Assembly (NCBI RefSeq): GCF_041821085.1
Contig: NZ_JBGUAZ010000001.1
Coordinates: 1 to 64,000, forward strand
Length of the DNA stretch: 64,000 bases
From: Natrinema sp. HArc-T2
Lineage (GTDB): Archaea; Halobacteriota; Halobacteria; Halobacteriales; Natrialbaceae
Direction: 5' to 3'
Below, piece by piece: positions 16,914-22,223 of this stretch. A program made the position numbers and the translations under genes. How positions within the stretch are numbered: position 1 is the stretch's first letter; each line of letters starts with the position of its first letter. The notes under the pieces were generated by a model that was not told the origin of the DNA, searched no databases, and saw only the letters and a list, made by a program, of their open reading frames with translations.

Positions 16914-18161
16914 GTGACAACGCTGGTCGTCTGCCTCGACCGGACCGACGACGTGGGCCGCAAGACCGGGCTCCGCTCGCCGGTCGTCGGCTGGGAGGCA
17001 GTCCGCGCGCTCGTGACCGACGTCGGCCTCGCGGATCCGGAGGATTCGGGTGTCAATACCTTGCTCGAGTCGCTTCGGGTCGCACAGAACTTACGCGACG
17101 AAAACGAGGAGGTCGTCGTCGCAGTCGTCTCGGGCGATCACGAGTCGATGGTCTCGGCAGACCGAGCGGTCGCCGCACAACTCGACGACCTCATCGCTGA
17201 CCACGACCCCGATTCGGCGGTCGTGGTGACCGATAGCGCCGAGGACGAACGGCTGATCCCGATCGTCGAGAGCCGCGTCCGGGTCGACTCCGTCGATCGG
17301 GTCGTCGTCCGACAGGCACGGGACATCGAATCGACGTACTACTTGCTCAAACAGTTCCTCGCCGACGAGGAACTTCGCCAGACCGTCCTCGTCCCCATCG
17401 GGCTGACGATGCTCGTCTTCCCGCTCCTTGCGACCACTGTCGGTCCCGCAGAGGGCGCTGCGGCGATCACGACCGTCATCGGCCTCTTCTTGCTCTACAA
17501 GGGGTTCAATATCGACGAACTGCTGGCCCGATTCTCCCATCAGACGCGGGAATCGCTGTACTCCGGTCAGGTGTCGGTCGTCACCTACGTCGTCGCGGCT
17601 GGACTGACCTTCGTCGGGCTATTTATGGGGGTGCTTGGCGTCTCGAACCTCGGTGAGACGCCCGGTGTGGTGCTTCCGGCGACGCGATTTGCCTTCGATA
17701 GCATCCCCTGGCTGGCGATGGCTGCACTGACCGCAAGCGCCGGTCGGCTGCTCGACGAAGTGATCGGTGATGATCCAGTCCGGCAGTCCTTTCTCAACTT
17801 GCCGTTTATCGTCGTCGCCGTCGGTTTGGTGATTCGTGGTTTCTCCGCGTACTTCCTCGAGCAACAGGGTGAAATCGAGCCGTTCGTCGTCTCGGCGTAC
17901 GAATTCGGCATCTTCTCGAACGAGCGGTTCGTGATAGTCGCCGGCGAACGACTCGCACTGTTCGTCGTCTCGGCACTCGTCGTCAGTCTCGTCGGCGCGC
18001 AGATCGCGTCGTCGCTGAGCGAGTCACACGACGGCGATCGAACCGATGGTGGGGCCGACGCGACGACCGACGCGGAAGGTAGCACACTTTCTGACCGGGC
18101 CGATCCCGAACTCACGGACGGTGGTGCGAATACGACTGCTGACCCCGATCGCGATCGCTAA
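16914..18161 (+). CDS. DUF373 family membrane protein
   Basis: A 415-residue protein. The N-terminal 160 residues form a soluble alpha/beta domain (TTLVVCLDRTDDVGRKTG, then VVAVVSGDHESMVSADRAVAAQLD and DSAEDERLIPIVESR). The rest has about seven membrane helices. It ends in a 45-residue Asp/Thr/Gly-rich tail. DUF373 is archaeal and of unknown function. It starts with GTG. The TAA stop overlaps the first base of the palindromic element at 18161. Confidence 0.85.
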   Translation: MTTLVVCLDRTDDVGRKTGLRSPVVGWEAVRALVTDVGLADPEDSGVNTLLESLRVAQNLRDENEEVVVAVVSGDHESMVSADRAVAAQLDDLIADHDPDSAVVVTDSAEDERLIPIVESRVRVDSVDRVVVRQARDIESTYYLLKQFLADEELRQTVLVPIGLTMLVFPLLATTVGPAEGAAAITTVIGLFLLYKGFNIDELLARFSHQTRESLYSGQVSVVTYVVAAGLTFVGLFMGVLGVSNLGETPGVVLPATRFAFDSIPWLAMAALTASAGRLLDEVIGDDPVRQSFLNLPFIVVAVGLVIRGFSAYFLEQQGEIEPFVVSAYEFGIFSNERFVIVAGERLALFVVSALVVSLVGAQIASSLSESHDGDRTDGGADATTDAEGSTLSDRADPELTDGGANTTADPDRDR

Positions 18162-18240
18162 TACTGTCGGACAACAGTCAATGAACACTCGATCGTGTCT
18201 CGAATTCGATCGATGTGTAATCCGTGTTGTCCGACAGTAT
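18161..18240. repeat. Palindromic element with ATACTGTCGGACAAC ends
   Basis: A perfect 15-bp terminal inverted repeat (18161-18175 with 18226-18240) encloses a further inner palindrome (CGATCG pairs). Total length is 80 bp and it is non-coding. The first A is the last base of the TAA stop of the upstream DUF373 gene. The same end sequence recurs at 40453-40585 and as a half copy at 60276. Confidence 0.8.
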
Positions 18241-18289
18241 ACCAACCCGAACTCGGTATCCCTTTACCCGTCCCTGCCGATCACGTCAC

Positions 18290-19015
18290 ATGAGCGACGC
18301 AGACGGCGCGTGGGTGAGTCTCTTTTCGGGTGGCAAGGACTCGGCGTGGGCGCTGTATCAGGCCATCGAGCGTGGCTTGCCCGTCGAACGACTCGTCACG
18401 GTCCACCCCGCTGGCGACTCGTATATGTATCACGTCCCCGCGACGGACTTGGCTGCGCTGGCGGCTGAGAGCATTGGCATCGACCTCGTCGACGTCGAAC
18501 CCGACGATTTCGGGGCCGACGCAGTGACTGACTCGAGCGCACAGGGTGACGACGAACTCGAGCCACTCGAGGCGGCCCTCGAGGAACTCGACTACGCGCT
18601 CCAGGGTGGCATCGCCGGCGTCACAGCGGGGGCCGTCGAGAGCGAGTACCAGACGAACCGCATTCAGGGAATGTGCGACCGACTGGGCTGTGAGCTGTTT
18701 GCCCCGCTGTGGCAGGAAGATCCCCACGAGTTGGCCGACGCGATGCTCGAGGCGGGCTTCGAAATCGTGATCATTCAGGTCGCAGCTCATGGCCTCGACG
18801 AGTCGTGGCTTGGCCGAACGCTCGATCGGGAGGCACTCGCCGAACTCGAGGCGCTCAACGAGGAATACGGCGTCCACATTCTGGGTGAGGGTGGCGAGTT
18901 CGAGACATTCGTTGTCGACGGGCCGCATATGGATCGGCGGATCGACCTCGAGTACGAGACTGAGTGGGACGGAACCCGCGGGCGGTTGCGGATTACGGAC
19001 GCACAGCTGGAATAA
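18290..19015 (+). CDS. dph6: Diphthine-ammonia ligase Dph6
   Basis: A 241-residue PP-loop ATPase with SGGKDS (residues 13-18) followed by VTVHPAGDSYMYHVP. The C-terminal half has GAVESEYQTNRIQGMCDRLG and ILGEGGEFETFVVDGP, standard for the enzyme. It amidates diphthine on elongation factor 2, the last step of diphthamide synthesis. The start at 18290 lies 25 nt after a CTTTACCC box. The last 38 codons are repeated downstream as a diverged fragment (19171-19284). Confidence 0.92.
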   Translation: MSDADGAWVSLFSGGKDSAWALYQAIERGLPVERLVTVHPAGDSYMYHVPATDLAALAAESIGIDLVDVEPDDFGADAVTDSSAQGDDELEPLEAALEELDYALQGGIAGVTAGAVESEYQTNRIQGMCDRLGCELFAPLWQEDPHELADAMLEAGFEIVIIQVAAHGLDESWLGRTLDREALAELEALNEEYGVHILGEGGEFETFVVDGPHMDRRIDLEYETEWDGTRGRLRITDAQLE

Positions 19016-19170
19016 GCGATCGTCTCCCGCGAGTGAACGGATGCGCGGCGCTTCGCGCCGCGGCAAGGCGAACGGCGTAGCCGTGAGCCAGTGAACGAGC
19101 GGTCTTTTTGGTCCAGATTTTTGCGCCGAGTGGTCACCGCAGGTGACCCGAGGCCAAAAAAGGTGGTTCT
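19016..19170 (+). repeat. Gene-end element with TTTTTGGTC-AGATTTTT core
   Basis: It starts directly after the dph6 stop and ends where a second copy of the dph6 3-prime end begins. It contains a perfect hairpin GCGGCGC/GCGCCGC (19045-19061), the core CTTTTTGGTCCAGATTTTT (about 19102-19120), and a hairpin GGTCACC/GGTGACC (about 19129-19147), ending in AAAAAAGGT. The core and layout match the element at 20242-20408 (minus strand). Confidence 0.7.
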
Positions 19171-19284
19171 GAGACGTTGGTTGTGGATGGGCCACACATG
19201 GATCGACGGATCGACCTCGAGTACGAGACTGAGTGGGACGGAACCCGCGGGCGATTGCGGATCACAGACGCGCAGTTGGAGTAG
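19171..19284 (+). pseudogene. Diverged copy of dph6 3-prime end
   Basis: A 38-codon fragment matching dph6 18902-19015 in frame with its own stop (TAG against TAA). By eye 100 of 114 positions agree. Of 14 differences, 12 are synonymous, one changes the stop codon, and one changes Phe to Leu. A 16-codon block in the middle is identical. It lacks a start and most of the gene, so it is a remnant, but its pattern shows it diverged while still coding. Confidence 0.85.
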
Positions 19285-19304
19285 CAGAGCGGAGTCGAGC
19301 CCCG

Positions 19305-19859
19305 TTAGTTACCGATCCGGTAGCGGTTCTCGAACGGGACGCGTTCGTGCCAGGCGAGCAGCACGTGGAGGCCGATCGCAACGGCGAACAGCCCGAAATT
19401 CCAGACCGGCGAATTGTAATAGATCACGTCGATGATCACCGGTTTCGCGTACAGCGGCCAGAACGGCTCGAGCGGGGCGGCGATGTCGGGAGCAGAGAGG
19501 AGGTCCGCGAAGATGTGACTGATTCCACCGAGGACCAACCCAGCGGTCGCGAAGACCAAGACGGTCTCGTCCGAGATGGCGGTGCTTCGAATCAGGCGGT
19601 TGGCGTTGAACCAGTCGGTGAGCCACTTCGCGGCACCTGCACCGACGAGAACGCTCATCAGCGACACGAACAGTAGGGTGTGGGTGATGCCGTGGTGGGT
19701 GATCGGGAGGACGTGCCGAAGGACGAGATCGGTGTCCGGGAGCATCGCAGTCGCTAACGCGAAGCCGGTAAATCCCAGTGCACCCCGTTGGCCCCAGATG
19801 AGCCACGCTGGCGCGGCAAACAGCAGCGCCATCCCGAGGTGGCCAGTGACGTCGACCAT
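19305..19859 (-). CDS. Membrane-bound metal-dependent hydrolase (YdjM/DUF457 type)
   Basis: A 184-residue protein with about five membrane helices. Family motifs are present: DVTGHLGMALLFAAP at the N-terminus, ATAMLPDTDLVLRH with acidic ligands (near residue 42), THHGITHTLLF (near 55), and GGISHIFADLLS (near 110). The family is a predicted zinc-dependent membrane hydrolase with unproven substrates. It is followed, 12 nt upstream on the same strand, by a small basic protein gene. Confidence 0.85.
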   Translation of the reverse strand: MVDVTGHLGMALLFAAPAWLIWGQRGALGFTGFALATAMLPDTDLVLRHVLPITHHGITHTLLFVSLMSVLVGAGAAKWLTDWFNANRLIRSTAISDETVLVFATAGLVLGGISHIFADLLSAPDIAAPLEPFWPLYAKPVIIDVIYYNSPVWNFGLFAVAIGLHVLLAWHERVPFENRYRIGN

Positions 19860-19871
19860 GTGGGTGAGCGG

Positions 19872-20066
19872 TTATCGGAGCCGCCGGACGACCCGGAGGA
19901 ACACGGACACTGCTGTCCCGAGGCCGGGAATGCGAGACGAGAGCGCGGCTGCACCCAGTAACAGGAGGCCGCTCTTTGGTCGCCCACGCCGAAACGCCAG
20001 CGCGCTGTCGATCAGCGTTGAGACGATACTGAGTTTGTTCGCTGTCCGCGAGTTGACGTTCGTCAT
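19872..20066 (-). CDS. Small basic haloarchaeal protein
   Basis: A 64-residue protein with an amphipathic N-terminus (NKLSIVSTLIDSALAFRRGRPKSG) and a hydrophobic middle (LLLLGAAALSSRIPG), ending in VFLRVVRRLR. I believe it is conserved in haloarchaea but cannot name it. The start at 20066 (MTNVNSRTANK) was chosen over the longer open frame. It lies 12 nt upstream of the membrane hydrolase and is probably cotranscribed with it. It is unusually basic for this organism, suggesting membrane-surface or nucleic-acid contact. Confidence 0.6.
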   Translation of the reverse strand: MTNVNSRTANKLSIVSTLIDSALAFRRGRPKSGLLLLGAAALSSRIPGLGTAVSVFLRVVRRLR

Positions 20067-20203
20067 CGTCCGTTGATGTCGGCACTTCACGGCTAAGTAC
20101 GACACCGCTGCAACAGCAGGCTCACAGGACCTCGCTCTCACACTAATAGAAATATTCTCGACGAAAACCGCTCGCTTAGGGGCCGTTGTGACCGTTTACG
20201 GCA
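20067..20203. other. Upstream region of small basic protein
   Basis: Non-coding. An AT-rich stretch near 20141-20158 on the minus strand may be the promoter of the 19872-20066 gene. Together with the remnant and element that follow, the gene-free stretch reaches 20408. Confidence 0.35.
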
Positions 20204-20241
20204 TTAATCGTGCTTGACGAGCGCTGACCCGTAAACGCCAT
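20204..20241 (-). pseudogene. Diverged remnant of purNH 3-prime end
   Basis: On the minus strand this reads the last 12 codons and stop of the purNH gene (MAFTGQRSFKHD). Against the intact end (20409-20446) there are four substitutions, all synonymous or stop-to-stop (ACA/ACG, GGA/GGT, CGG/CGC, TAG/TAA), and a one-base deletion. It is separated from the intact gene end by the element at 20242-20408. Confidence 0.75.
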
Positions 20242-20408
20242 CTCGACATCGACCTTTTTCTCGTCGGGTTCGTTCGCTCTGCTCACTCACCACTCCTTGA
20301 AAAATCTCGACCAAAAAGCCGCTCGCTTCGCTCACGGACGTTGTGTCCGTTCGCATTCCGCGGTTCTCGCTCACGATGTTCGCTCCGAACCGCGCATCGC
20401 TCGCGGTT
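20242..20408 (-). repeat. Gene-end element with TTTTTGGTC-AGATTTTT core
   Basis: On the minus strand it begins at the base after the purNH stop with a perfect 7-bp hairpin (AACCGCG/CGCGGTT, 20388-20408). It continues GTGAGCGAAGCGAGCGG, core CTTTTTGGTCGAGATTTTT (about 20291-20319), GGAGTGGT, and ends GAAAAAGGTCGA. Order and core match the element after dph6. It lies between the intact purNH end and its remnant. Confidence 0.7.
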
Positions 20409-22046
20409 CTAATCGTGCTTGAACGACCGCTGTCCTGTAAACGCCATCGCCATGCCGTGTTCGTCTGCAGCCTCGATGACGTCCTCGTCGTTGACCGAGC
20501 CGCCGGGCTGGACGACTGCCTCGATACCCGCTTTCGCGGCCTCTTCGATGCCGTCCGGGAACGGGAAGAACGCGTCCGAGGCCATGACCGCGCCCTCGGC
20601 GTCTTTGCCTTCGGCGTGCTCGTCGGCTTTCATCGCTGCCAGCCGGACCGCGTCGACGCGGGAGACCTGTCCCATCCCGACGCCGACCGTCTCGGTGCCA
20701 TCCGCAAAGAGGATCCCGTTCGATTTCACGTGCTTGAGCGTCTGCCACGCGAAGACCATCGACTCGAGTTCCTCCTCGGTGGGCTCGCGCTCGGTGACGA
20801 CCTCGAGATCGTCGACCGAAATCGACTGCAGGTCCCGTTCCTGGACCAGTCGGCCGCCGACGAGGTCCTTTTCGGTGAAGCGCTCGGTCTGCTCGCCGAG
20901 CTCGCCGACATCGAGCACGCGGAGGTTGTCTTTCTCGCAGAGCGTCTCGAGCGCGTCGTCGGTGTAGCCGGGGGCGACGACGACTTCCTTGAACGAGTCG
21001 ATGATCTGCTCGGCCGTTTCAGCATCGCACTCCCGATTCAGCGCGACGATGCCGCCGAAGGCGCTCATCGGGTCCGTCGAGAGGGCCTTCTCGTAGGCCT
21101 CGGCCAGCGAGTCGGCGGTCGCACAGCCTGCGGGGTTGGTGTGCTTGATGACTGCCGCTGCGGGCTCGTCGAACTCCTTGATGAGGTTGAGCGCGCCGTC
21201 GGCGTCGTTGTAGTTGTTGTAGGACAGGCCCTTCGCGCCCTCGTTCAGCTGGTCGGCGTGGACGACGCTCGCCTCGTCGCAGGTGTAGTCGGCGTAGACG
21301 GCAGCGTCCTGGTGGGGGTTCTCGCCGTAGCGAAGCGTGTCCGCGCGGTCGTCGGAGACCAGCCGCCGGGCGGGCAGCCCATCGTGATCGTCACTGTCAG
21401 TGCTCGCCACGTCGGCATCGACTGTGACCTCGCCGGCCTCGAGATCGATCTCGAGTGCGTCCTCGGCGACCCACTTCACGGCGCGGGGATACGCGCGGAA
21501 CTCGCCCTCGTAGAGGACGCGTTCTTTCAGGGTATCCTCGTCGTCGCCCTCGTAGACGGGGATCGGCTCTTGGGTGACGATCGGCCCCATGTCGACTTCG
21601 TCCTCGAGTACGTCGCCGTCCTCGTCGGTCGCGTCGGTGACGACGTGGACCGTACAGCCGGTCACCGACACGCCGGCCTCGAGCGCGTCGCCCCAGGCGT
21701 CCATGCCGGGGAACGACGGCAGCAAGGCGGGGTGGACGTTCAGCGTCGTCGGTGCCTCGGAGAGGAACGTATCCGAGAGGATCCGCATGTAGCCGTCCAG
21801 ACAGACGAGGTCGAACTCGTACTCGCCCAGTGCCTCGAGGACTGCCTCCTCGTGCTCGCGGCGGCTCATTCCATCCTCGAGCGGGACGACTTCGGTCGGA
21901 ATCCCGCGTTCGGCGGCGGCCTCGAGGACCGGCGCGTCCTCGGTGTTGGTCAGAATTACGGCGAACTCGGCGCCGCCCGGCTTGCGGTCGGCGATGTTCA
22001 ACAGGTTGCGCCCTCGGTTGCCGGCCATCCCGGCGATTCGCGTCAT
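20409..22046 (-). CDS. purNH: PurN-PurH fusion: GAR and AICAR formyltransferases
   Basis: A 545-residue fusion. Residues 1 to about 205 are a GAR formyltransferase (GNRGRNLLNIADR loop, TLNVHPALLPSFPGMDAW with the catalytic His, GCTVHVVTDATDEDGDV). Residues about 220-545 are the AICAR formyltransferase domain of PurH (RYGENPHQDAAVY, KHTNPAGCATADS with the catalytic Lys-His, FPFPDGIEEAAKAGIEAVVQPGG). The IMP cyclohydrolase part of bacterial PurH is absent; archaea use PurO. The start at 22046 gives MTRIAGMAGNRG. It is divergent from purB, the later purine enzyme. Confidence 0.9.
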   Translation of the reverse strand: MTRIAGMAGNRGRNLLNIADRKPGGAEFAVILTNTEDAPVLEAAAERGIPTEVVPLEDGMSRREHEEAVLEALGEYEFDLVCLDGYMRILSDTFLSEAPTTLNVHPALLPSFPGMDAWGDALEAGVSVTGCTVHVVTDATDEDGDVLEDEVDMGPIVTQEPIPVYEGDDEDTLKERVLYEGEFRAYPRAVKWVAEDALEIDLEAGEVTVDADVASTDSDDHDGLPARRLVSDDRADTLRYGENPHQDAAVYADYTCDEASVVHADQLNEGAKGLSYNNYNDADGALNLIKEFDEPAAAVIKHTNPAGCATADSLAEAYEKALSTDPMSAFGGIVALNRECDAETAEQIIDSFKEVVVAPGYTDDALETLCEKDNLRVLDVGELGEQTERFTEKDLVGGRLVQERDLQSISVDDLEVVTEREPTEEELESMVFAWQTLKHVKSNGILFADGTETVGVGMGQVSRVDAVRLAAMKADEHAEGKDAEGAVMASDAFFPFPDGIEEAAKAGIEAVVQPGGSVNDEDVIEAADEHGMAMAFTGQRSFKHD

Positions 22047-22223
22047 GGTCGAACCCGCGCTCGCAAGCGGCAAAGTGGTTGCGGTCTCGAGCGCCGACAT
22101 ATACACATCCGTGTATCATTCTGGCTGTATTTCATCACCGATCGGCAGAGGTATGCACGCACGTGGGATCGAACGGCCACGGGTTTCGATACGCTTTTGC
22201 AACGGGCTGGACGAACGGCCACT

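Follow-up and report, generated by a model that had tools for sequence, protein, structure and literature searches.

Directly behind dph6 of Natrinema sp. HArc-T2 lies a conserved short hairpin, here called element E, at whose right edge a partial copy of the gene's own 3' end begins. This architecture is not restricted to dph6 but recurs at about 30 other genes across haloarchaea, including purH, only 1 kb away. Our tentative reading, possible though far from certain, is that E is a terminator-like hairpin of gene ends at whose right edge the tails of host genes are copied again and again, the copies then being mixed by homologous recombination. We analysed a window of 64,000 nucleotides (positions 1 to 64,000 of contig NZ_JBGUAZ010000001.1, forward strand), to which all coordinates refer unless stated otherwise; other genomes and loci carry our working handles (G and L numbers). 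The combination of a hairpin with a copied gene tail is apparently undescribed so far: no account of such an element was found in the open-access literature searched.

The gene end of dph6

The dph6 locus has the following features:

18290..19015, plus strand: dph6, the host gene, diphthamide synthase family, 241 aa (Pfam PF01902, E=1.1e-59)
18902..19015, plus strand: tail 1, the functional dph6 3' end, repeated further downstream (direct repeat, 88% identity)
19016..19104, plus strand: variable stem region, GCGAGTGAACG...GAACGAGCGGTC, between the dph6 stop and the hairpin; terminator-like by sequence, folds into stems
19105..19166, plus strand: hairpin element E of the CC/GG type, TTTTTGGTCCAGATTTTT-stem-AAAAAAGGTGG (exact pattern match)
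19167..19284, plus strand: tail 2, the copy of the dph6 3' end from the hairpin edge; it opens with TTC and an inserted T (19170) and continues as 19171-19284 with a stop of its own

A preliminary description of this DNA had noticed a second occurrence, at 19171-19284, of the final 38 codons of dph6 (18902-19015). The direct-repeat search confirmed this, with 113 nt (18902-19014 versus 19171-19283) being 88% identical at a start-to-start spacing of 269. Far above chance, no other gene-end repeat found in 800 kb of the genome comes close to it in strength. The repeat itself had been seen correctly, but its start has to be moved from 19171 to 19167, where the copy sets in at the hairpin edge with TTC, an extra T and GAGACG. 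Similarly, the "155-bp element" placed between the tails (19016-19170) exists as a spacer, but it is really a variable terminator-like stem region followed by a conserved hairpin of 62 bp (19105-19166). Written out, the hairpin reads TTTTTGGTSSAGATTTTT...AAAAAGGTSS and closes the spacer of the dph6 tails; its fold (19111-19168) has a z-score of -3.85. The stem region (query positions 148-223) was matched at many places in relatives, and copies of it are common in congeners. A known structured RNA family was rejected as a candidate, as an Rfam scan of 17000-21000 gave no relevant match.

Two further palindromic sequences were observed near dph6 genes. A perfect 16-bp inverted repeat (ATACTGTCGGACAACA, 18161-18176 and 18225-18240, arms 48 nt apart) lies between a DUF373-like gene and dph6 of the window, and in the dph6 3' region of G015 (L010) a palindromic insert, TATAGTAGCCACTGAAA...TTTCAGTGGCTACTATA, is located between the dph6 stop and the stem region of E.

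The two tails differ at 14 of 114 positions, as counted before, comprising 12 synonymous changes, one amino-acid change (TTC to TTG, Phe to Leu) and one change of the stop codon (TAA versus TAG). Across the 111 coding positions the differences are distributed 1/0/12 over codon positions 1/2/3. By our own arithmetic, a third-position share of 12/13 has a binomial p of about 0.002, the expectation under decay being at most about half. Simple decay of tail 2 is disfavoured because differences would then also be expected at first and second codon positions; the initial view that tail 2 is no decaying dead duplicate thus holds at dph6.

A second case in the same window

The purH gene carries the same arrangement on the opposite strand:

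20409..20448, minus strand: purH 3' end, tail 1 of the second instance (direct repeats; gene 20409-22106, Pfam PF01808 and PF00551)
20250..20317, minus strand: second hairpin E, CG/CG type, TTTTTGGTCGAGATTTTT...GAAAAAGGTCG (pattern match; fold z=-1.68 for 20250-20312)
20204..20249, minus strand: purH tail 2, a degenerate copy of the purH end, ATG + TC + GAGATGGCGTTTACGGG... (repeats and junction comparison)

The hairpins of dph6 and purH share TTTTTGGTCSAGATTTTT...AAAAAGGTSG. Such hairpin cores, with up to 2 mismatches, occur three times in the 800 kb of genome, two of them being those of dph6 and purH. Within the same 800 kb the only 3'-end repeats of coding genes found were at E elements; the other local direct repeats inspected are inside genes or at a tRNA end. 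On contig 1 of G000 (L035, about 287584-287759) part of a tRNA 3' end occurs again about 70 nt downstream, here with no E involved; this may be the footprint of an integration.

Structure and distribution of element E

For 166 of 177 copies, the interior of E gives a better fold than shuffled sequence. In 168 of 170 distinct copies, which stem from numerous genera of haloarchaea, its outer two base pairs are complementary, and all four combinations of the outer dinucleotides of GGTSS...GGTSS were seen (CC/GG, GC/GC, CG/CG and GG/CC). The conservation of the ends is in part due to data selection, since the search patterns fix those ends with their T5/A5 arms; complementarity of the outer pairs was not demanded by the patterns and was counted directly at the ends. 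Covariation is also visible at a single gene: purH orthologues with the same tail junction are of the CC/GG type in some species, of the CG/CG type in others.

A search across bacteria and archaea with one genome per species yielded at least 120 stretches, and all 80 among the matches listed belong to halophilic archaea, with Haloferax, Halorubrum, Haloarcula, Halococcus, Natrialba and Halovivax among the genera. Among 295 sampled genomes of the phylum, 18 were positive for E, every one belonging to the order of the window. The number of exact copies ranges from 0 to 13 per genome.

Of the 189 copies of E in the combined set, 108 have part of the upstream gene's 3' end repeated directly behind them, compared with 0 in the reversed-flank control. 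A separate class-wide count gave 66 of 134 (control 0). In 15 congener genomes roughly 25 of 30 hairpin copies are tailed in this way, and with a looser pattern 63 of 81 (control 0). These reversed-flank controls reject a chance repeat, and a haloarchaeal repeat unconnected with gene ends is rejected by the association with stop codons and tails. The genome of the window had been thought to bear the scar of a single replacement event. The recurrence at so many genes does not support such a one-off scar, and neither does dph6 itself, as the junction GGTGG-TTC-Y-GAGACG was found, when sought in sister genomes, in many congeners, in Natronococcus and in Natribaculum.

Copies of E without a tail often have another neighbour. 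A convergent stop codon lies within 15 nt of the edge in 30 of 73 tail-less copies versus 4 of 108 tailed ones (offset control, 5 of 73); typically, the stop codon of the convergent gene is 0-5 nt from the edge, or a tRNA 3' end is found there. Because tail-less copies tend to adjoin convergent stops or tRNA 3' ends, E looks like a gene-end element acting on both strands, perhaps as a terminator. For the latter role its position after stops and tRNA ends and its T-tracts are suggestive only. Termination at T-stretches and hairpins is known in Haloferax (PMC7237163). With haloarchaeal intrinsic terminators (PMC7237163) E shares T-tracts, hairpins and a position after stops or tRNA ends and between convergent genes, but it differs from them in being a specific conserved element of 60-75 bp with covariation of its own and with gene-tail copies.

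Some loci deviate from this general picture. A second hairpin family, TCTTTGCGAAC...CTCTCGCCAGACAGATTTTT, splits the core of E at GGT/CCAGATTTTT in L007 (G010), L012 (G007) and at the end of L080 (G003). In YIM A00010 (L291, L293, L294, L296, L297, L299) and Halocatena (L208, L216, L253) E stands beside a small ORF (..WCRPCQSTGCAHA..YCQYRQRGDLAGLRQRYPELARVV..), some of the hairpins forming inverted pairs in the manner of a mobile cassette; the tail after E in L299 of YIM A00010 is a copy of this small ORF itself. The ORF has no match in Pfam, NCBIfam or PHROG, and as a general partner of E it was rejected, with 0 of 146 other genomes of the order matching.

The junction at the right edge of the hairpin

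Tail copies start exactly at GGTSS, the right edge of E. At the usual junction the first 3 nt correspond to the gene, then 1-2 extra nt follow, which shift the frame, and then the copy resumes. Examples are TTC-T-GAGACG in dph6, ATG-CC/TC-G.. in purH and ileS, GAC-T-GGGACG in Halorubrum, ATC-T-GTGAAC in pyk and TCG-C-ACGTCG in etfA. Counted by gene and junction, which lessens the non-independence of copies from related species, 35 of 52 distinct combinations have a frameshifting indel, and the gap is exactly at nt 3 in 62 copies; some copies are without indel. The copied tails are about 25-115 nt long and terminate close to the stop codon or within the stem region.

Arrays of the form tail-(E-tail)n were observed, n being 1-3 or more. 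At L227 a radical SAM gene is followed by at least three near-identical E-tail units, suggesting recent amplification. Tandem arrays would be in line with an ordinary tandem duplication that happened to include a terminator, but this origin is highly improbable: it does not lead one to expect the fixed edge of E, the slip signature or recurrence throughout the class, and in the 800 kb of genome coding-gene ends are repeated only at E.

Several genes have more than one junction. The tail starts at codon -17 or about -10 in argF, at -15 or -11.7 in etfA and at -10.7, -11 or -20.7 in the radical SAM gene; pyk has several starts, and the junction also varies between lineages at the PINc ATPase gene. 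In argF, the shorter tail of L067 lies next to a hairpin that belongs to the same lineage as that of the longer-tailed L084 and has its own +1 slip. G005 and G006 have similar argF hairpins, but the tails behind them begin at different codons, each with its own slip. These differing junctions are the main reason why we favour an E that stays in place while tails are copied to it repeatedly, rather than an E that inserts and duplicates its target.

Insertion is an alternative, possible but rather doubtful: E would be a small mobile element with insertion sites behind gene ends, and the gene tail an unusually long target-site duplication (25-115 bp). It would explain the tail-E-tail topology and the occurrence of E across many genes and genera. 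It is also in agreement with Halorubrum relatives that lack E and have downstream DNA aligning after tail 2, and with one haloarchaeal genome that contains 13 copies of almost the same sequence, some of them in inverted pairs that flank a small ORF. However, the length of the duplication varies from about 25 to 115 bp, one argF hairpin lineage has two different tail starts, many copies of E have no duplication, and an internal slip of 1-2 nt is foreign to target-site duplications. No transposase was seen near E in the loci read (3-8 kb), nor was one found in viral contigs. The E pattern was absent from the viral contigs searched, by which a virus-borne element was rejected.

Evolution of the dph6 tails

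The tail 2 closest to that of the window belongs to G024 (8 differences), and the closest sequence to tail 1 is the single tail of G016 (7 differences in the printed alignment). In this comparison the two tails of the window differ from each other at 13 positions, more than either from its nearest relative. They are thus not mutual closest relatives, which supports the earlier idea of divergence as two coding lineages. In at least seven other species the dph6 tails are mutual nearest or nearly so (mutual nearest or tied in G018, G009, G005, G015, G041, G020 and Natribaculum), as expected from concerted evolution; this does not favour a single replacement event. Tail 2 of G000, of G024 and of G011 clusters with the second tails of relatives.

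The similarity shifts that had been suggested as a check were found as mosaic flanks whose identity changes at the tails. Around the dph6 3' end of the window G016 reaches 94-95% identity; the ydjM-like gene downstream is 96-98% identical to G011/G024 versus 84-87% to G016 in local comparison (97/96% versus 86% for the gene as such), and genes farther upstream group with G024. Site patterns are concordant but few, with 7:2:2 and 7:4:3 compared to 53:7:3 far upstream.

In 56 pairs of tail 1 and tail 2 the differences amount to 40/29/156 by codon position. Flat distributions were observed in G018, G005, G041 and Natribaculum and look like neutral drift after recent homogenisation. Neutral decay is rejected by the codon-position bias at dph6 of the window, though some other species do look neutral.

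The third-position bias (40/29/156 overall, 1/0/12 here), the mosaic flanks and the proximity of tail 2 to that of G024 would all suit introgression as the sole cause, with foreign alleles plus E replacing native gene ends by homologous recombination and leaving native tails behind; in a generalised form, tail 2 would be a homology arm that lets E pass between species via the conserved coding tail. We regard this as unlikely. It does not account for the exact start at the hairpin edge with the slip at nt 3 in dozens of genes, the flat distributions of the four taxa named above speak against it, and the topology test relies on few sites. The foreign allele postulated in the preliminary description therefore has its place in the divergence between the copies and not in the duplication itself: recombination between lineages explains how the dph6 copies differ, not why a copy exists or starts at the hairpin edge. 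As had been suspected, lineages have exchanged sequence at dph6, and they did so on a duplication that their ancestor already had.

Selection on tail 2 itself, for instance as a coding fragment or as a source of guide or antisense RNA directed at the gene of origin, is quite improbable. Differences in tail 2 between species are distributed over codon positions almost as in the gene (279/257/1009 versus 917/865/3967), and the pattern is retained at the same genes across genera. The bias is, however, explained by concerted evolution, short tails of 25-40 nt are common, and a consistent start codon is missing. Tail 2 is also truncated or frameshifted in G010, G012 and G017 (the truncated tail of G012 has 1 difference in 62); in G024 its stop is gone, and in G002 it is degenerate.

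Possible course of the copying

From the junctions and the behaviour of the tails we infer the following course. E, a conserved hairpin of DNA or RNA, is placed at haloarchaeal gene 3' ends and would behave as a bidirectional element of terminator type, either abutting a convergent stop or tRNA 3' end or following the stem region of the upstream gene. Replication or repair may stall at the hairpin, the new strand being freed at its edge. The freed strand would, by what seems the most likely route, switch template to the gene tail just behind E, so that about 25-115 nt of the upstream gene's 3' end would be copied in at GGTSS with a slip of 1-2 nt three nt past the junction. Both tails would then be kept alike, or swapped with orthologous tails of relatives, by homologous recombination. 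Gene conversion is efficient in polyploid Haloferax (PMC8223754, PMC11276520). Because homologous recombination would homogenise and exchange them, the tails resemble two functional coding lineages rather than a gene and junk. In the window, dph6 may represent an old duplication of this kind whose copies now come from different congener lineages.

Comparison by eye of the hairpin end with the gene just before the junction revealed no obvious microhomology, which weakens ordinary microhomology-mediated template switching. Furthermore, generic repair would predict a less regular slip than one of 1-2 nt that is always placed at nt 3, and the strong conservation of the short E and its tie to a limited set of core genes fall outside what re-copying accounts for. 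That no clear microhomology was visible and that the slip is so regular leaves room for a dedicated copying enzyme. E might then be the recognition hairpin of a class-wide haloarchaeal process in which the end of the gene in front of E is repeatedly copied to its edge, with a fixed signature of 3 nt plus a slip of 1-2 nt, by a dedicated reaction instead of generic repair, a variant that we consider rather unlikely.

Relation to known elements

Like REP/REPIN sequences and MITEs, E is short, palindromic and intergenic, lies at gene 3' ends and has several copies per genome, one genome showing inverted pairs. It differs from them by its low copy number, the tail of the host gene at one fixed edge and class-wide conservation with covarying ends. 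The high copy number of REP/REPIN contrasts with 0-13 exact copies per genome, and in place of the short target-site duplication of fixed length of a MITE or IS derivative, E is flanked by gene tails of about 25-115 nt that vary between and within genes.

The attL/attR sites of integrative elements are similar in that the gene end is restored upstream, a partial end lies downstream and the copies have diverged. Unlike them, E loci have no integrase or cargo between the copies (the spacer consists of stem region and E only), and one hairpin serves dozens of unrelated genes with variable tails. A second copy of the right flank consistent with att sites was not detected in 47 tail-less loci (up to 8 kb; 3 weak repeats), and an integrative-element footprint was rejected in the absence of a distant attachment-site copy within these loci limited to 8 kb.

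Diversity-generating retroelements resemble the dph6 case in their VR/TR pairs, with a gene 3' end repeated about 100 bp downstream and a hairpin nearby. The tail differences are, by contrast, concentrated at third positions and mixed in type rather than at template adenines, and no reverse transcriptase was seen near dph6, the neighbours being the ydjM-like gene, purH and purB.

Palindrome-associated transposable elements have been described in Haloquadratum. These are likewise haloarchaeal, palindromic and non-coding; they differ from E in length and sequence, and are not known to have gene-tail copies.

Significance

If confirmed, a short conserved hairpin would mark sites in haloarchaeal genomes where gene ends duplicate and are homogenised again repeatedly. 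This would offer a natural, testable system for copying provoked by hairpins and for gene conversion in polyploid archaea, the fixed junction signature making the copying reaction directly accessible to testing. Partial gene copies in haloarchaeal genomes would then not necessarily mean decay or scars of gene transfer.
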